A stretch of DNA of 64,000 bases, from contig NZ_JADLZT010000001.1 in assembly GCF_015453285.1 (NCBI RefSeq), positions 1 through 64,000 of the forward strand, read 5' to 3'. Both the position numbers and the translations under genes were made by a program. The stretch's first letter is position 1. Each line of letters opens with the position of its first letter. The notes below the pieces were generated by a model. The model was not told where the DNA came from. It searched no databases and saw only the letters and a list, made by a program, of their open reading frames with translations. The DNA is from Lysobacter niastensis. Lineage in GTDB: Bacteria > Pseudomonadota > Gammaproteobacteria > Xanthomonadales > Xanthomonadaceae. Positions 1,390 to 9,524 of this stretch are shown here, one piece after another.

Positions 1390-1977
1390 TCAGATTGCGG
1401 GCGTGCCATTGTAGGTCGCCGAGTCGGTGCAGATCGCATCCAGGGCAACGTCCCAGTCCGCCCGAAGCAGCGAATCGATTCGCTGCACGTCGAATGCGGC
1501 GCCGGCCAGCCAGGGCGGTGCGGCGTCGCGCTGACGAAAGGCGAACGTGCGGTCGTACCAGCCGCCACCCATGCCCAGGCGATGGCAGGACCGATCGAAC
1601 CCGACGAGCGGGACGACCACCAGGCTCATCTGCGAAGCGTCCAGCAGGCTATCGGGAGACAGGTCCGGCTCGGGAATGCCGTGGCGATTGCTTACCAGCG
1701 GGTCGCCTGGACGCCAGGGCGCGAAGCGCAGATGGCCGTCCTCGTGCAGAACCGGCAGGCAGTACACGCATTCATCGGGCAGGCGCAGCTGCCACATGTG
1801 CAGCGCAATCTCGCCGTCCATGGCCCAGTAGCCGGCGACATAACCCGAAGTGGGAGCAAAGGGGAGCGCCAGCAATCGCTGGGCCAGCCGTTCTGCACCG
1901 GCGATGCGTTCGCCCGGCGGCAGGGCGCGGCGGCGGTCGCGGAGTTCGCGGCGCAATGCCGCGCGGTCAGCCGTCAT
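1390..1977 (-). CDS. ygfA: 5-formyltetrahydrofolate cyclo-ligase
   Basis: Converts 5-formyl-THF to 5,10-methenyl-THF using ATP, returning folate to the one-carbon pool. The 195-residue protein has the family signature GMGGGWYDRTF at 135-145 (glycine-rich phosphate loop) and the preceding VVPLVGFD. The ATG at 1977 gives a typical N-terminus (MTADRAALRRELR). In many proteobacteria this gene lies directly downstream of 6S RNA, and the same order is seen here. A U-rich intrinsic terminator sits between the two, so expression probably depends on readthrough or on a separate promoter. Confidence 0.95.
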   Translation of the reverse strand: MTADRAALRRELRDRRRALPPGERIAGAERLAQRLLALPFAPTSGYVAGYWAMDGEIALHMWQLRLPDECVYCLPVLHEDGHLRFAPWRPGDPLVSNRHGIPEPDLSPDSLLDASQMSLVVVPLVGFDRSCHRLGMGGGWYDRTFAFRQRDAAPPWLAGAAFDVQRIDSLLRADWDVALDAICTDSATYNGTPAI

Positions 1978-2022
1978 GCGGCGCGGTTCCCTAATGTTCG
2001 CCGGCCATCGCCGCTGCGTGGA

Positions 2023-2050
2023 CAAAAAAGAACAGGCGCGAAGCCGCGCC
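2023..2050 (-). terminator. Intrinsic terminator between 6S RNA and the cyclo-ligase gene
   Basis: On the minus strand a stem ggcgcg/cgcgcc (2045-2050 with 2035-2040) closed by the tetraloop gctt is followed by tgttc and six U (2029-2024). A second inverted repeat, gggacc/ggtccc, lies just upstream at about 2063-2085. This is a good Rho-independent terminator for the 6S transcript, 46 bp before the cyclo-ligase start. Confidence 0.8.
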
Positions 2051-2095
2051 CGATCTGGATTGGGGACCCCATGCAATGAGGTCCCGGAATGAAAA

Positions 2096-2279
2096 GTCCT
2101 CCGCCAATGGCGATGCTTGCGAAACGACCTTGAACCCGGGGTTCAAGTGGGGACGCTTGGATGCCTTCGGGCTTCCCGCTACAAGGCGGACTTGCACTCC
2201 GGGCCTCCGCCGCGCCCCCGTGGTCGTCATTAAGGGACAAGGCGAATGTTTGCGCACGCTGTCGCGCACAGCAGAGGAC
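2096..2279 (-). ncRNA. ssrS: 6S RNA
   Basis: A 184-nt RNA gene that binds sigma-70 RNA polymerase holoenzyme and damps transcription in stationary phase. The closing stem is gtcctc (2279-2274) with gaggac (2101-2096). The internal palindrome CTTGAACCCCGGGTTCAAG (minus strand, about 2147-2129) matches the strongly conserved CCTTGAACC-x-GGGTTCAAGG block of gammaproteobacterial 6S RNA. Other 6S-like parts are the CAAACATTCGCCTTGTCCC strand and the TCGCAAGCATCGCC return strand. The context is diagnostic: zapA upstream and 5-formyl-THF cyclo-ligase downstream, as in E. coli. It accounts for most of the gene-free stretch 1978-2372. The product RNA (pRNA) start in the central bubble cannot be fixed by reading alone. 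Confidence 0.93.
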
Positions 2280-2280
2280 G

Positions 2281-2372: not shown

Positions 2373-2678
2373 TCAGCGCGCAGTGGCGTCGAACAGATCG
2401 TCGAGGCGGCGATGCAACTCGTTGAGCGTGCGCGAGAGCTCACGGTCGCGGCCTTCGCTTTCGCCCTTGATCTGCTGCAGTTCGTGCGCGAGGTTGAGCG
2501 CGGCGAGAACGGCGATACGATCGATCGCCGCCATGCGGTTGCTGCCGCGGATGTCGCGCATGCGCTGGTCGAGCAGCTTGGCCGCGGCGAGCAGGCTGTC
2601 GCGTTCGTCCGGCTCGCAACCCACCGTGTATTCACGGTCGAGCAGGCGGATGTTGACCGGTTCGCTGGCGGAACTCAT
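2373..2678 (-). CDS. zapA: Cell division protein ZapA
   Basis: A 101-residue FtsZ-ring stabiliser; ZapA tetramers crosslink FtsZ filaments at midcell. The N-terminal globular part contains VNIRLLDREYTVGCEPDERDSL, of which the stretch around DREYTVGC (residues 14-21) is typical, followed by LAAAKLLDQRMRDIR and a long C-terminal helix ending in a basic coiled-coil tail. The length equals the family norm. It is 10 bp downstream of a small coiled-coil gene and upstream of 6S RNA, an order conserved in gammaproteobacteria. Confidence 0.95.
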   Translation of the reverse strand: MSSASEPVNIRLLDREYTVGCEPDERDSLLAAAKLLDQRMRDIRGSNRMAAIDRIAVLAALNLAHELQQIKGESEGRDRELSRTLNELHRRLDDLFDATAR

Positions 2679-2688
2679 GGCGAAGGAC

Positions 2689-2910
2689 TCACGTGTGCTG
2701 CTCCAGCGATTTCAGCCTGGCGATCATCGCCTCCACGCGCGTGCGTGCCTGCTCGTTCTTGGCCAGCAATGCCGAACGCTCGCCGATCAGTTGTTCCTGC
2801 TGCTGGCGCAAGCTCCGGTTCTCGTCGCCGAGGCGGCGTGCGCGCTCGGCCACCTCTTCGAGGCGGGCGGTCAGCGACTGCAACTCGGCGATCAGTTCGG
2901 CGCGATCCAT
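2689..2910 (-). CDS. Small coiled-coil protein, TIGR02449 family (ZapB-like)
   Basis: A 73-residue protein that is almost entirely heptad-like helix: LQSLTARLEEVAERARRL at 11-28, then ENRSLRQQQEQLIGERSALL, then ARTRVEAMIARLKSLE. No membrane segment or signal peptide. In Xanthomonadales and Pseudomonas a protein of this size and type is encoded just upstream of zapA (the TIGR02449 family, from memory). The position suggests a divisome role comparable to ZapB, which also is a pure coiled coil; this is inference. ATG at 2910; zapA follows after 10 bp. Confidence 0.8.
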   Translation of the reverse strand: MDRAELIAELQSLTARLEEVAERARRLGDENRSLRQQQEQLIGERSALLAKNEQARTRVEAMIARLKSLEQHT

Positions 2911-2977
2911 GGCGGCACGATAGCAGGGCCACTGGGCCGGTCAAGGCGCGCCAGAGCGGGGCGTCGTAGACCGGCTC

Positions 2978-5900
2978 TCAGGGGACCGCGCCCACCGTGC
3001 TGAGCGCACTAGGGGTCCAGGTCCGGATGAAGGCGAAGCAGTGCTGGGCTTCCAGCGGGCGCGCCAGCCAGTAGCCCTGGATCTCATCGCAACCGTGCTC
3101 ACGCAGGAAGCGCATCTGGTCGACGGTCTCCACGCCTTCGGCGACGACGGTCAGGCCAAGCGAGCGCGCCATCGTGATGACGGTGCTGGTGATGGCCTCG
3201 TCTTCCGGATCGTGGGTCAGGTCACCGATGAACTCCTTGTCGATCTTGAGCGTGTTGATCGGCAGGCGCTTGAGGTAGGCGAGCGAGGAATAGCCGGTGC
3301 CGAAGTCGTCGATCGCCAGGCCGACGCCGATCGAGCGCAGTGCCTGCAACGTCGCCGAGGTCTGCTCGGCGTTCGCCATGATCACGCTTTCAGTCAGTTC
3401 GAGCTGCAACTGCTCGGCGGGCACGCCGCTCTCGATGAGCGTGCGGGCAACGGTCCTGGGCAGGCTGCCGCGCAGCAGCTGCAGCGCCGAGACGTTGACC
3501 GCCATCGTCAGCTGGTCGAGGCCATTGTGGCGCCAGCGCTTGAGCGTGCTGCAAGCCTCGCGCAGCGCCCATTCGCCGATGTCGAGGATCAGGCCGCTTT
3601 CCTCGGCCAGCGGGATGAACTGCGCCGGCGATATCTCGCCGTGCTCCGGACTGTTCCAGCGCAGCAGCGCCTCCACGCCCGTGATCTGCGACGTCGCGAG
3701 CGAAAGCTTGGGCTGGAACACCAGGCGCAGCTCGCCGCGGTCGAGCACCTTGCGCAATGCCGCCGAGATCGTGGCGCGGCGCCGGATCTCAACGTCCATG
3801 ACCTCGTTGTAGCGCATGTAGGTACGCCGGCCGGCTGCCTTGGCCTGGTACATCGCGGTGTCGGCGTGTTTGAGCAGGTCCGTCGGCACCTGCGCATGCT
3901 CGGGGTACAGGCTGATGCCGATCGACGGCGATATCGATACGTCCTGGCGCTCGTCGATTTCCAGCGGATCCTCGAACGCCTGCAAGAGGTCGCGTGCGAT
4001 CCGCTCCGCTTCGTCCGGACTCTTCAGGTTTTCCAGCACGACGGTGAACTCGTCGCCGCCCAGGCGCGCGACGGTGTGTTCGTTGCCGACTGCGTTGAGC
4101 AGGCGTGCGGCGGTGGCGCGCAGGATGCGGTCGCCGGCGGCGTGGCCGAGCGAGTCGTTGATGTCCTTGAACCGGTCGAGGTCGAGGAACAGCACCGCGA
4201 TGTGCGTGCCCTGCCGGCGCGCGCGCACGATCGCGCGCGAGAGGCGCTCGGACAGCAGCGTGCGGTTGGGCAGGCTGGTCAGCGTGTCGTAGTTGGCCAG
4301 GTAGCGCAGCTCCTGCTCGGCACGCTTCTGGTCGGTGATGTCCGTCAGCACGGCCACGTAGTGGCTGCGCTGGCCGCTGGCATCCTGCACCGCGCTGCCC
4401 TGCAGCCAGCACAGGAACTCGTTGCCGTCCTTGCGCTGCTGCCAGATCTCGCCCGACCAGCGGCCTGTGCGCTCGAGCTCGCTGCGCATGTGCCGGTAGA
4501 ACTCCGGGTCGTGCTGCATGCTGTCGATCAGGCTGGACGATCTGCCGATGACTTCGGCATCGCTGTAGCCGGTCATGCGCGTGAAGGCGGGATTGACCGA
4601 GACGAACATGAAATCGCGGTCGACCACCGCGACCGCCTCGGCCATGCTGCGCAGCACTTCGCTGGAGATGCGACGCTCGCGCTCCGCGCTGCGGCTTGCC
4701 GTGACGTCGCGGGCGGTGCCCGCCACGCGCAGCGCCCGGCCGTTGTCGCCGCGGTCGACCACGCGGCCACGCGCACGCACCCAGCTCCAGCTGCCGCTGG
4801 CGTTGCGGACGCGATGCTCCGACAGGAACAGGGCGGAGTCGCCACGCAGGTGCTGGCGCAGGAGTTCGCGCACCCGGGGCAGGTCGTCGGGGTGGATCTC
4901 GTGCTCTTCCTCGATGTAGGTCTGCACGCCGATGTCCGGAGCGAGACCGCCCTCCTCGTGGACGCGCATCCGGTGCAGTTCGCCACGCGCCAGGTCGTAA
5001 TCCCAGAATTGCTCGCCGGACGCCCACAGAGCCAGCTTCAGGCGCTCCTCGCGTTCGCGGATCTGATCGAAGTAGCCGCGCTCGCGTTCGCGACGCTGGT
5101 GCCAGCGCCAGCTCAGGGTGGCGCCCAGCGCCAGCAGCATCAGTGCGGCGGCGGTGAGTGCCAGCGGATGGCGCCACAGCGGCGGCGCGACGAACACCGG
5201 GATCTGCAGTTCCTGCGGATTCCACACGCCATCGCGATTGGTGGCCTGCGCGCGGAACAGGTAGCGACCAGGCGGCAGGCCGGTGTAGGAGATGTCCTGC
5301 TGCATGCCGTTATCGACCCAGCCCTGGTCGAAACCGTCCATGCGGTACCGGTAGCGGATGTTGGCCGCTGGCGCGAAGTCGAGTGCACCGATGCGCAGGC
5401 GTAGCAGGTCTGCGCCGTCTGGCACGTCGAGGCGCGCCGGATCCCAGAGCACGCCACCGTCGAGCGAGTCGTCCGCACCGACGCGCGCCGACAGCAGCCG
5501 CACTGGGGGTGTGTAGCGCGAATCGGCCATGCGGCGCGGATCGAACAGGTTGATGCCGCGCACGCCGCCCAGCAGCACGCGTCCGTCGCTCAGATAGGCG
5601 ACGGCGCCGCCGTTGAACTCCAGGTCCTGCAGGCCGTCGGCGAGGCCGTAGGCGCGCGCCTGGTCGTTGTCGGTATCGAAGCGCAGGATGCCGGCGTCGG
5701 TGCCGAGCCAAAGGCGTCCGCTCGGCGCCTCGGCGATGGAGAACACCACCGGGACCGGACGCCCGCGCAGCGCTTCGCTCAGCGGGTGGGCAAAGTGGAT
5801 GGGCTCGCCCGGTACCTCGATCACGCGGCTCAGGCCTGCGTGCGTGCCCACCCAGATCGCGCCGTCGCTGGCGATGTGCACGGCCCGCACGCGGTTGCCG

Positions 5901-7519
5901 GCGAGGCTGTCGGCGGCATCGCTGCGGTGGCGGAAGTGGCGCAGCATGCCGGTGGCCGGGTCGAGCAGGTCGAGGCCGTCGCTCGTGCCCATCCAGATCC
6001 GGCCGCGGCGGTCCTGCGCGATCGCATGCACGGTCGGATGGCTGAGTCCGCTGGGCTGCCCCTCGCGGTATGCATAGCGCACGACGCGGCCGCTGCGCGG
6101 GTCGTAGCGCAGGGCGCCGAGGTTCGTGGTGCCCAGCCACAGCGAGCCGTCGCGATCCTTGCTAATCGTGCGCAGGCTGGCGTTGCTGTACTCGCCCAGG
6201 TCGAGCGGACGGGTATGGCGGGAATGCGTATTCAGGCGCACCAGTCCGCGCGTGGTGGCGACCCACAATTCGCCGTCGCCGGCCGGCACGAATCCGACGG
6301 CACGGTGCTGCGGCAGCATCGGCAGCGCCGCGCTGTCGTCATCGAACCGATCCTCGTCGAGCCGGTAGTGCAGCAGGCGGCCGTTGTCCGTGCCCACCCA
6401 AAGTGCACCCTCGTCGTCCTGGATGGCGGCGCGGACGCTGTCGTCGGCTGCCGCGTTGCGCGAGCGCCCGCTGTCGAGGTCGAAGACGTAGCGGAAACGG
6501 CTGCCGCGCGGGTCGGTGATGGAGACGCCGCGGAAGCCCCCGCCGACCCACAGCATGCCGCCGCGATCGACCAGCAGGCTGCTGACCGACTCGTCTGGCA
6601 GGGTGGCGTCGACGCCTGCTTCCTCGCGGACGGCTTCACTCCGTCCGCTCACCGGGTCATAACGCAGCAGGCCTTCGCCCGGAATGCCCAGCCACAGGCG
6701 GCCATCGGGCGCTTCGGCAATGGATCGCACGTCATGGATGCCGGCGTCGCGCTCCGTCGGCCAAGTCCGGATCAGGGTGCGGCCATCGCTGTGCAGCCGG
6801 TAGAGGCCGTCGTGGCGGCCGATCCACAGTTGGCCGCGATGGTCCTGCCCGAGGCTGCCTGCCGGTTCCGCGGGGCCGACCCGGTCCACCGCACCACTGA
6901 CCGCGATACGGTACAAGCCGGCGTTGCTGGCGAACCATACCGAGCCGTCACGCGTCGCCAACAGGTTCTGCCAGGGCGCTTCGCGGGTCGTCTGGGAGTT
7001 GAGGCGCACCACCAGCGTGCGGCGGCCGCTGGCGGCGTCCAGTCGCTCCAGGCCGGCGACCGTGCCCACCCAAAGCGAGCCGCGCGCCGGCAGCAGGGCC
7101 ATCACCTGGCGGTTGGCGTGTTCACCGTCGGTGATCTGGTAGCGGCGGATCTTGCCGGTGCCCAGATCCAGCCGAGCCACGTATTCGGAATAGGTGCCGA
7201 TCCACAGCGCCTCGCGGCCCTCGACGGCGAGCGCCGTCACGAAGCTGTCCGGGAGCGTTCCGGGATCGCGCGGATCATGGCGGAAGGCGACGTAGCGCTT
7301 GCCGTCGTAGCGATGCAGGCCGCCCTGAGTGCCGACCCAGACAAAGCCCTGGCGGTCCTGGGCCAAAGCGGTGACCGTGTTCTGGGTGAGCCCGCGATCG
7401 CTGCCCAGGCGCGTGAAGTAGAAATCGCGCGTGGCGGCGTGCGCCGGCGGACCGATGCCCGCAGCGATCAGTATCAGGCCGAGCAGGCCGACGGAGAGGG
7501 CAGGGACGGAGGGACGCAC
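2978..7519 (-). CDS. Hybrid periplasmic-propeller sensor with PAS, GGDEF and EAL domains
   Basis: A 1513-residue inner-membrane c-di-GMP enzyme. Order: signal peptide (about 1-28, ending AHA); about 14 propeller repeats carrying motifs such as GFVWVGTQGGLHRYD and GRLWLG (about 30-700); a Y_Y_Y-type domain (about 700-775, RYRMDGFDQGW); one transmembrane helix (about 785-805); two PAS domains (about 830-1070); GGDEF intact at 1154-1158; EAL intact near 1283. The extracytoplasmic part resembles the ligand sensors of hybrid two-component systems (Reg_prop), so an external ligand may tune cyclase or phosphodiesterase activity. Both output motifs are complete, so the net activity cannot be read from sequence. 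The start is a GTG with no Shine-Dalgarno and a -10-like TACACT only 8 bp upstream, which suggests a leaderless mRNA. It is monocistronic. Confidence 0.93.
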   Translation of the reverse strand: MRPSVPALSVGLLGLILIAAGIGPPAHAATRDFYFTRLGSDRGLTQNTVTALAQDRQGFVWVGTQGGLHRYDGKRYVAFRHDPRDPGTLPDSFVTALAVEGREALWIGTYSEYVARLDLGTGKIRRYQITDGEHANRQVMALLPARGSLWVGTVAGLERLDAASGRRTLVVRLNSQTTREAPWQNLLATRDGSVWFASNAGLYRIAVSGAVDRVGPAEPAGSLGQDHRGQLWIGRHDGLYRLHSDGRTLIRTWPTERDAGIHDVRSIAEAPDGRLWLGIPGEGLLRYDPVSGRSEAVREEAGVDATLPDESVSSLLVDRGGMLWVGGGFRGVSITDPRGSRFRYVFDLDSGRSRNAAADDSVRAAIQDDEGALWVGTDNGRLLHYRLDEDRFDDDSAALPMLPQHRAVGFVPAGDGELWVATTRGLVRLNTHSRHTRPLDLGEYSNASLRTISKDRDGSLWLGTTNLGALRYDPRSGRVVRYAYREGQPSGLSHPTVHAIAQDRRGRIWMGTSDGLDLLDPATGMLRHFRHRSDAADSLAGNRVRAVHIASDGAIWVGTHAGLSRVIEVPGEPIHFAHPLSEALRGRPVPVVFSIAEAPSGRLWLGTDAGILRFDTDNDQARAYGLADGLQDLEFNGGAVAYLSDGRVLLGGVRGINLFDPRRMADSRYTPPVRLLSARVGADDSLDGGVLWDPARLDVPDGADLLRLRIGALDFAPAANIRYRYRMDGFDQGWVDNGMQQDISYTGLPPGRYLFRAQATNRDGVWNPQELQIPVFVAPPLWRHPLALTAAALMLLALGATLSWRWHQRRERERGYFDQIREREERLKLALWASGEQFWDYDLARGELHRMRVHEEGGLAPDIGVQTYIEEEHEIHPDDLPRVRELLRQHLRGDSALFLSEHRVRNASGSWSWVRARGRVVDRGDNGRALRVAGTARDVTASRSAERERRISSEVLRSMAEAVAVVDRDFMFVSVNPAFTRMTGYSDAEVIGRSSSLIDSMQHDPEFYRHMRSELERTGRWSGEIWQQRKDGNEFLCWLQGSAVQDASGQRSHYVAVLTDITDQKRAEQELRYLANYDTLTSLPNRTLLSERLSRAIVRARRQGTHIAVLFLDLDRFKDINDSLGHAAGDRILRATAARLLNAVGNEHTVARLGGDEFTVVLENLKSPDEAERIARDLLQAFEDPLEIDERQDVSISPSIGISLYPEHAQVPTDLLKHADTAMYQAKAAGRRTYMRYNEVMDVEIRRRATISAALRKVLDRGELRLVFQPKLSLATSQITGVEALLRWNSPEHGEISPAQFIPLAEESGLILDIGEWALREACSTLKRWRHNGLDQLTMAVNVSALQLLRGSLPRTVARTLIESGVPAEQLQLELTESVIMANAEQTSATLQALRSIGVGLAIDDFGTGYSSLAYLKRLPINTLKIDKEFIGDLTHDPEDEAITSTVITMARSLGLTVVAEGVETVDQMRFLREHGCDEIQGYWLARPLEAQHCFAFIRTWTPSALSTVGAVP

Positions 7520-7620: not shown

Positions 7621-8184
7621 GTGTCCAAGACCGACCCCAACCCTGCCGAACTGCCCGCGGTCTCCGCGATCGAAGCCGAAAGCCGGCGCCTGGAACTGGC
7701 GGCAACGCCCTTCGAGCTTCACGGTTCGCTGTGCGGCTGGCTCGCTGGCGGCGGCGCGTCGGTACGTGAATGGCCGGCCAAGGTGCTGGCCGACGATGCC
7801 ATCCCGGCGCCGCCCGAGGGCAGTCCGCTGGATGAACTGAGGCTGGCCAGCGCTTCGCAGCTGGACGATCGCAGCTTCGATTTCGACCTGCTGCTGCCGG
7901 AAGCCGACGCCTCGCTGGCCGAGCGCAGCGGCGCACTATTCGAGTGGTGCCGCGGTTTCCTGGGCGCATTCGGCCTGGCCGCCGGCGCTAGCCCGCGGTT
8001 GTCCGAGGAAGGGCAGGAGGCCCTCGCGGACCTCGCCCGCCTGGCCGGGGCGCAGGCGCAGGAAGATGGCGACGAGGATGACGAAGAGGCGCTGGTGGAG
8101 ATCGAGGAGTTCGTGCGCGTGGCCGTGCTGTTGCTGCACGGCGACTGCGTGCTCGCCGCGCAGCATCGCCAGCGCCTCAACTGA
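7621..8184 (+). CDS. ygfB: UPF0149 family protein YgfB
   Basis: A 187-residue acidic protein of the UPF0149/YecA-like family. The N-terminal helix with ELHGSLCGWLAGG (about 38-50), the central LFEWCRGFLGAFGLA, and the C-terminal acidic linker (DGDEDDEEALVEIEEF) before VLLLHGD are family features. No SEC-type C-terminal metal motif is present. In Pseudomonas aeruginosa YgfB modulates ampDh3 expression and beta-lactam resistance; here the role is unknown. The GTG at 7621 was chosen because it gives the usual MSKTD-like N-terminus and lies about 30 bp after the likely transcription start; an upstream TTG at 7537 would lie before it. pepP follows 5 bp later, as in E. coli. Confidence 0.88.
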   Translation: MSKTDPNPAELPAVSAIEAESRRLELAATPFELHGSLCGWLAGGGASVREWPAKVLADDAIPAPPEGSPLDELRLASASQLDDRSFDFDLLLPEADASLAERSGALFEWCRGFLGAFGLAAGASPRLSEEGQEALADLARLAGAQAQEDGDEDDEEALVEIEEFVRVAVLLLHGDCVLAAQHRQRLN

Positions 8185-8189
8185 CCGGC

Positions 8190-9524
8190 ATGGCCAAGCC
8201 GATCACGACTCCCGCCAAGGCCTACGCCCGCCGGCGCAGGCAGCTCATGCGCATGGCCGGCGACGACGCCATCCTGGTGCTGCCGGCCGCGCCCGAGCGC
8301 ATCCGCAGCCGCGATACCCACTACCCGTACCGGCAGGACTCCGACTTGCTGTACCTCACCGGGTTTCCCGAGCCTGAGGCGGTCCTCGTGCTGGTGCCGG
8401 GGCGCAAGCACGGTGAAGTGATCCTGTTCTGCCGAGAGCGCGACCTCGAACGCGAGGGCTGGGACGGTCCGCGTTACGGTCCGGAAGGTGCGGTCGAGAC
8501 GTTCGGCCTCGACGATGCGTATCCGATCACCGACCTCGACGACATCCTGCCGGGCCTGCTCGAAGGCCGGTCGCGCGTGTATTACCACTTCGGACGCGAC
8601 CAGGAGTTCGACCTCAAGCTGATCGGCTGGCTCAACCGCGTGCGCGCGATGGTGCGCCAGGGCGCGCAGCCGCCGCACGAGTTCCTCGAACTCGGCCACC
8701 TGCTCGACGAACTGCGTCTGTTCAAGGATCGCGACGAGATCCGGTTGATGCAGCGCGCCGCCGACATCAGCGTGCTCGCTCACCAGGCTGCGATGCGTGC
8801 GGTGCGGCCGGGCATGCACGAATACGAGTTGCAGGCGGAGCTGGAACGCGTCTTCCGCCAGCACGATGCCGAGCCGGCCTACAGCAGCATCGTGGGCGCA
8901 GGCACCAATGCCTGCGTGCTGCATTACCGCGCCAATCGCGCGCCGGCGATGGACGGCGACCTGGTGCTGGTCGATGCCGGTGCCGAGTATCGCGGCTATG
9001 CCGCCGACATCACGCGCACGTTCCCGGTCAACGGCCGCTTCAGCAAGGAGCAGCGTGCACTGCACGATCTGGTCGGCGCGGCGCAGGCGGCTGCGCTCGC
9101 GCAGGCGCAAGCCGGAGTCGCCTACGAGGCCGGCCACGTTGCTGCGGTGGAAACGCTGACCGAAGGGCTGCTCAAGCTGGGACTGCTCAAGGGGCGCCTG
9201 GAGAAGAACATCGCCGATGGCAGCTACAAGCGCTTCTATCGCCACAAGACCGGCCACTGGCTGGGCCTCGACGTTCACGACGTCGGCGAATACCGCTTCG
9301 ATGGCGAATCGCGCCTGCTCGAGCCCGGCATGGTGTTCACGATCGAGCCCGGCCTCTATGTATCGGCCGATGACACCAGCGTCGACGCGAAGTGGCGCGG
9401 CATCGGCATCCGCACCGAAGACGACGTGCTGGTGACGCGCGACGGCGCCGAAGTGCTGACCGGCAAGCTTGCGCGCAGTGCGGACGAGATCGAGGCCTTC
9501 ATGGCCGACGTGCGAGTGGCCTGA
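8190..9524 (+). CDS. pepP: Xaa-Pro aminopeptidase (PepP)
   Basis: A cytosolic dinuclear-metal M24B peptidase that removes N-terminal residues preceding proline. 444 residues, close to the E. coli enzyme. An N-terminal aminopeptidase P domain (residues 1-175, with SDLLYLTGFPEPEA) precedes the pita-bread catalytic domain. The five metal ligands are all present: D262 and D273 (DAG...DITRTF), H356 (GHWLGLDVHDVG), E386 (TIEPGLY) and E410 (RTEDDVL). It is coupled to ygfB by a 5-bp gap. In E. coli ubiH follows, but here the operon ends and pepQ converges from the other strand. Confidence 0.97.
   Translation: MAKPITTPAKAYARRRRQLMRMAGDDAILVLPAAPERIRSRDTHYPYRQDSDLLYLTGFPEPEAVLVLVPGRKHGEVILFCRERDLEREGWDGPRYGPEGAVETFGLDDAYPITDLDDILPGLLEGRSRVYYHFGRDQEFDLKLIGWLNRVRAMVRQGAQPPHEFLELGHLLDELRLFKDRDEIRLMQRAADISVLAHQAAMRAVRPGMHEYELQAELERVFRQHDAEPAYSSIVGAGTNACVLHYRANRAPAMDGDLVLVDAGAEYRGYAADITRTFPVNGRFSKEQRALHDLVGAAQAAALAQAQAGVAYEAGHVAAVETLTEGLLKLGLLKGRLEKNIADGSYKRFYRHKTGHWLGLDVHDVGEYRFDGESRLLEPGMVFTIEPGLYVSADDTSVDAKWRGIGIRTEDDVLVTRDGAEVLTGKLARSADEIEAFMADVRVA

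Follow-up and report, generated by a model that had tools for sequence, protein, structure and literature searches.

A propeller-sensor GGDEF-EAL protein at a conserved Lysobacter locus: a probable membrane-bound c-di-GMP phosphodiesterase with a dispensable periplasmic sensor

In this paper we analysed a window of 64,000 nucleotides of Lysobacter niastensis DNA, in which a single gene joins a beta-propeller sensor to both a GGDEF and an EAL domain. The gene raises two questions: does its product make or break down c-di-GMP, and how far does it depend on its sensor? Our preferred answer, which we hold to be probable, is a membrane-bound c-di-GMP phosphodiesterase, gated by its propeller and possibly bifunctional, that can do without its sensor. 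It starts from what sequence and a structural model provide, namely the domain order, the sensor fold, the intact GGDEF and EAL motifs, the loss of RxxD, the fixed position of the gene and the existence of propeller-less orthologues.

A preliminary description had proposed a very large propeller-PAS-GGDEF-EAL sensor, and the single open reading frame of 1513 residues bears this out (Table 1). Its Pfam domains all score far above cut-offs and chance: Reg_prop (157 bits, E 1.3e-48), Y_Y_Y (E 2.4e-17), PAS_3 (E 7e-23), PAS_9 (E 8.6e-18), GGDEF (E 4.6e-48) and EAL (E 2.1e-72). The hydropathy profile has two strong hydrophobic segments, from residue 5 (signal peptide) and from residue 786 (transmembrane helix). 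HisKA, HATPase_c, receiver and HTH domains gave no Pfam match in the protein at E<=0.001. Since the sensor joins GGDEF-EAL in one polypeptide without a kinase, a periplasmic signal could be coupled to c-di-GMP in one step.

Table 1. Features of the propeller-GGDEF-EAL gene, its flanks and a second Reg_prop gene of the same genome
Feature	Position	Strand	Details
Propeller-YYY-TM-PAS-PAS-GGDEF-EAL gene	2978..7519	-	1513 codons/aa, GTG start, single ORF
Signal peptide, residues 1-28	7436..7519	-	Hydropathy segment 5-23; ends ..PPAHA; cleavage site by eye
Periplasmic sensor, residues 29-780	5180..7435	-	Pfam, AlphaFold2 model, Foldseek/VIA-align, PDB sequence match
TM helix, residues about 784-803	5111..5170	-	Hydropathy: 19-aa window from 786, mean 1.88
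First PAS domain	4709..5056	-	PAS_3 best stretch 875-936; start approximate
Second PAS domain	4331..4657	-	PAS_9 961-1063
GGDEF domain, residues 1075-1232	3824..4297	-	Pfam and motif check
EAL domain, residues 1254-1488	3056..3760	-	Pfam and motif check
UPF0149/ygfB (flank, divergent)	7621..8184	+	Start GTG 7621 inferred from homology onset
pepP, Xaa-Pro aminopeptidase (flank)	8190..9524	+	
Promoter-like TTGACC-16-TATCGT, for TIGR02449-zapA	2917..2944	-	Conserved; just past the propeller-GGDEF-EAL gene
TIGR02449 coiled-coil gene (flank)	2689..2910	-	
zapA (flank)	2373..2678	-	
6S RNA, ssrS (flank)	2094..2280	-	
fau/ygfA, 5-formyltetrahydrofolate cyclo-ligase (flank)	1390..2076	-	
Other Reg_prop hybrid histidine kinase, window's genome	L247:3510-7142; C1 about 266.5-270.1 kb		

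The periplasmic part consists of tandem beta-propellers followed by a C-terminal Y_Y_Y domain. We modelled residues 28-790 with AlphaFold2 from an alignment of 39 rows (the window protein and 38 loci), which gave a mean pLDDT of 90.6 and a pTM of 0.87. Foldseek ranked BT4663 first (4a2m and 4a2l, TM up to 0.82), followed by BT3049 and BT4673. VIA-align covered the whole length of the sensor against 4a2l (Z 38.9, rmsd 3.7, 711 residues) and gave Z 33.9 against 3v9f; rows below the four Bacteroides sensors were single-propeller matches and were disregarded. Identity to BT4663 is about 22%, and a sequence search of the PDB matched the sensor to 4a2l with E 4.7e-71. The model thus supports a BT4663-type sensor. 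In the accessible text on BT4663, this heparin/heparan-sulphate sensor is a dimer with two seven-fold propellers and a Y_Y_Y domain, and its propeller entrances bind disaccharides (PMC5121618). By analogy, the ligand of the window sensor is probably a glycan, and we infer that the sensor may likewise be dimeric and bind disaccharides at the propeller entrances.

What does the output half do with such a signal? The preliminary description had both output motifs complete and had named the loss of RxxD or DDFGTG as counting against it. GGDEF (residues 1154-1158), EALLRW (at 1283) and DDFGTG (at 1404) are indeed intact, but the RxxD site five residues before GGDEF reads GNEH (1145-1148), so that the I-site is absent. 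One of the two named losses is thus seen and the motifs are complete only in part, although RxxD is an inhibitory product-binding site and not a catalytic one. We compared the protein with a core set of 116 orthologues, 81 with the propeller (long), 34 without it (short) and one split, assembled from 27 distinct plus 15, 16 and 60 loci of successive searches, minus L046 (sensor part only, at a contig end) and L126 (two stops, also excluded from the tree). L032-L034 duplicate L043-L045 and were not counted. Thirteen EAL active-site positions (in E, R, N, ELTE, DDFGTG, KID, EGVE and Q) are invariant in all 116, and the site is complete in the window protein; a diverged relative outside the set, L256, has KIG in place of KID. 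The first glycine of GGDEF is replaced by Ser or Ala in 20 orthologues and intact in the other 96, including ours, while RxxD is kept in only 13/116 and missing in 103/116. The best NCBIfam models for the window protein are phosphodiesterases. The DibA equivalog NF045675 scores 640.3 bits over residues 937-1493, below its curated cut-off of 980, and none of the full-length NCBIfam phosphodiesterase models reaches its own cut-off with this protein. Matches of the cytoplasmic part in the PDB are 5m3c (named 'Diguanylate cyclase'), 4rnh ('Motility regulator'), which we take to be MorA, 5m1t and DosP. Because the EAL site is invariant, the GGDEF motif and I-site drift and the best models are phosphodiesterases, the constant activity of the orthologues is probably hydrolysis of c-di-GMP rather than its synthesis.

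The most serious alternative is that the propeller activates a diguanylate cyclase, or that the ligand switches a bifunctional enzyme, so that binding would raise c-di-GMP, as the preliminary description implies. GGDEF motif positions 2-5 and the checked metal and GTP residues are invariant in the 116 orthologues, and the family has many proteins that join a propeller to GGDEF. The loss of RxxD removes feedback inhibition, which would also suit a cyclase. Changes of the first glycine can still leave cyclase activity, according to the accessible text of PMC6637768, and with the motif intact in most orthologues a cyclase or bifunctional role is therefore possible. The same alignment nevertheless has its constancy on the EAL side and its drift at the first GGDEF residue and at RxxD, and the best family models are phosphodiesterases. 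We regard a ligand-driven rise of c-di-GMP as rather unlikely, and continue with hydrolysis as the main activity.

We also considered whether propeller loss goes together with the change of the first glycine, which is seen in 4/81 long and 16/35 short or split orthologues. This link found no support in an independent-pairs test, which had few informative pairs and a median p of 1, and we do not retain it. The four long SGDEF cores (L067, L070, L071 and L072) all belong to three mixed genera that hold propeller-less forms too.

The sensor varies as well. The 34 orthologues without a propeller still have the TM-PAS-PAS-GGDEF-EAL arrangement and many of them occupy the same locus, which indicates that the propeller sensor is dispensable. 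On a core tree built by a quick method under LG+G4 the propeller state changes 12 times, and at least 9, 8 or 5 times when branches under 80, 90 or 95 are collapsed, although such parsimony counts alone do not distinguish gain from loss. The genera g3, g4 and g52 contain both forms. In g52 the DNA of the short L092 matches that of the long L067 at 79% across the start of the gene, signal peptide included, and again at 87% from just before the TM helix; between these matching stretches lie 2260 nt in L067 and 181 nt in L092. A second hydrophobic segment upstream, as expected of a leftover signal peptide, is present in 11 of the 34 short reading frames. Because the signal peptide and TM helix are kept around the g52 gap and such upstream segments persist in short forms, we read the propeller-less forms as the outcome of repeated in-frame deletion, a direction that the counts by themselves leave unproven.

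Alternatively, the propeller-less form could be ancestral and the propeller inserted several times, a view on which the parsimony counts are silent. It would fit family f11 of the same order, where the gene beside ygfB has no propeller (L047, L250) and forms with one are found elsewhere (L035, L049). But long forms adjoin ygfB in families f3, f5 and f12 as well, and in g4 and g3 the short forms branch from within the long ones. With the g52 signal peptide and TM helix, which flank the gap, each homologous to its counterpart in the long relative, and the upstream segments described above, we find repeated insertion improbable. A non-enzymatic receptor of c-di-GMP or GTP is very unlikely indeed: GGDEF-EAL pairs are often degenerate receptors, such as LapD and FimX, but here every checked catalytic residue of both domains is present and the LapD NCBIfam model reaches only 134.6, its cut-off being 1020.

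Taking repeated deletion and hydrolysis together, we suggest the following course for the phosphodiesterase. The protein would be a dimeric enzyme of c-di-GMP turnover in the inner membrane. Binding of a ligand, probably a glycan fragment, at the propeller entrances would shift the angle of the Y_Y_Y stalks, as in BT4663. This movement would travel along the one TM helix and the helical PAS-PAS linker until it reached the GGDEF-EAL dimer, where it would gate mainly the phosphodiesterase activity. The GGDEF half, free of product inhibition, may act as a regulator that responds to GTP, or as a cyclase of low activity. The propeller would be an add-on input, with selection keeping the membrane PAS-PAS-GGDEF-EAL core, and where it has been deleted the core might continue under PAS control alone.

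How widespread are these forms? A match at E <= 1e-220 was found in 193 of 247 genomes of the family, and part of these 193 were fetched for the comparisons above. Among the best 80 of 402 relatives, our named sample, 52 are long, 27 short and one partial. In this sample long forms occur in Lysobacter, Vulcaniibacterium, Rehaibacterium, Chiayiivirga, Rudaea and Pseudomarimonas, and short ones in most Luteimonas, Pseudoxanthomonas and Arenimonas and some Lysobacter. The sorting by genus name is imperfect, since two Luteimonas (L166, L169) are long. Lysobacter arseniciresistens ZS79 (L159) is among the long forms, L. antarcticus GW1-59 (L176) among the short ones, and L. enzymogenes also has an orthologue (L133). 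The reduction can go further. Of the 54 family genomes lacking a match we sampled 15, all of which carry pepP; in 13 of these ygfB is followed by TIGR02449-zapA and the GGDEF-EAL gene is gone, while L262 is reduced to a hydrophobic segment with GGDEF-EAL and L256 to the same parts plus one PAS. In one locus, L044 (G022:C13), sensor and core are adjacent in different frames, which may be a frameshift or an assembly error; we kept it unmended as one row labelled 'split'. Outside the order, among 369 genomes of the class, the sensor-to-core match at E <= 1e-150 was found only in G549 and G756, in both of which the whole sensor precedes the core (20-21% identity, tblastn). Close relatives thus have at the same locus an enzyme with the propeller, one without it, a GGDEF-EAL stub or no gene at all, which amounts to a natural dissection. 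Such with/without pairs allow the role of the sensor to be tested, and named strains such as L. arseniciresistens ZS79 and L. antarcticus GW1-59 make the question a practical one.

The site itself is strongly conserved. The gene lies between the divergent ygfB-pepP pair and TIGR02449-zapA-6S RNA-fau on its own strand, and ygfB and zapA are found on both sides of it in 104/116 loci; in the remaining 12 one or both flanks were not found in the stretch examined, some stretches ending early. The downstream gap to TIGR02449, 67 nt in the window, is at most 100 nt in 61/75 long and 28/31 short loci. The short gap suggested co-transcription with zapA, but a conserved promoter-like site before TIGR02449 speaks against it and we do not claim an operon. 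TTGACC-N15..19-TATCGT occurs exactly within the 90 bases before TIGR02449 in 72/107 loci, and with 9 or more of the 12 positions matching in 84/107, against 111/10700 random 90-nt windows. Because this site is conserved, the TIGR02449-zapA block probably has its own start. The gene had been said to stand alone. This holds in so far as the immediate flanks contain no carbohydrate or polysaccharide-utilisation genes and a separate conserved promoter-like site lies on the zapA side, but it overlooks how strongly the position is conserved. We could speculate that the fixed site beside TIGR02449-zapA-6S RNA is functional, the enzyme reading the state of envelope polymers, for example peptidoglycan or exopolysaccharide fragments, and adjusting c-di-GMP for cell division. 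We give this idea little chance; if it were true, the repeated in-frame removal of the propeller would mark lineages in which the c-di-GMP tied to division no longer answers to the outside world.

Reg_prop and Y_Y_Y domains had been described as usually sitting on hybrid histidine kinases of polysaccharide-sensing systems. In this family a propeller feeding a c-di-GMP output is not unusual. Reg_prop proteins occur in 141 of the 149 family genomes searched, and all five in a hand-picked sample of the family's Reg_prop proteins of about 1000 residues have a GGEEF motif. The one other Reg_prop protein found in the window's genome, which has ten EAL domains, is a hybrid histidine kinase with a receiver. 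The further proposal, direct conversion of an external signal into c-di-GMP, survives in the fusion of a BT4663-type sensor to GGDEF-EAL without a kinase domain, but it needs amending, as breakdown appears likelier than synthesis and the sensor dispensable. We did not find, in the literature searched, a role for propeller/Y_Y_Y sensors that drive c-di-GMP rather than a kinase, and the function of these domains is given as unknown in the accessible text of PMC6637768. The accessible parts of two papers on Xanthomonas c-di-GMP signalling identify no orthologue by name (PMC6637768, PMC10333796). Elsewhere, YfiN is reportedly a division inhibitor.

Compared with known systems, the window protein shares two periplasmic propellers, a Y_Y_Y domain and a single TM helix with BT4663-type HTCS proteins, but where these have HisKA, HATPase_c, receiver and HTH domains its output is PAS-PAS-GGDEF-EAL. 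In Lysobacter, HtsH1-3 are described as Reg_prop/Y-Y-Y/HisKA/HATPase_c/Response_reg proteins (PMC8463545). Closer in wiring are GdpX2 and GdpX3 of the related Xanthomonas oryzae, Reg_prop/Y_Y_Y GGDEF proteins that likewise place a propeller/YYY sensor on a c-di-GMP output (PMC6637768). In the accessible part of that paper their GGDEF domain stands alone, its I-sites are conserved, and neither EAL nor PAS is listed, whereas the window protein has an EAL domain, two PAS domains and no I-site. Its PAS-GGDEF-EAL core resembles the phosphodiesterases DibA, DosP, MorA and MucR, none of which was seen with a propeller sensor in the present results. The window protein is thus real and well built, a variant of a known propeller-to-c-di-GMP theme. 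What is new and of most use is that the states of its sensor form a natural series at a single conserved locus.
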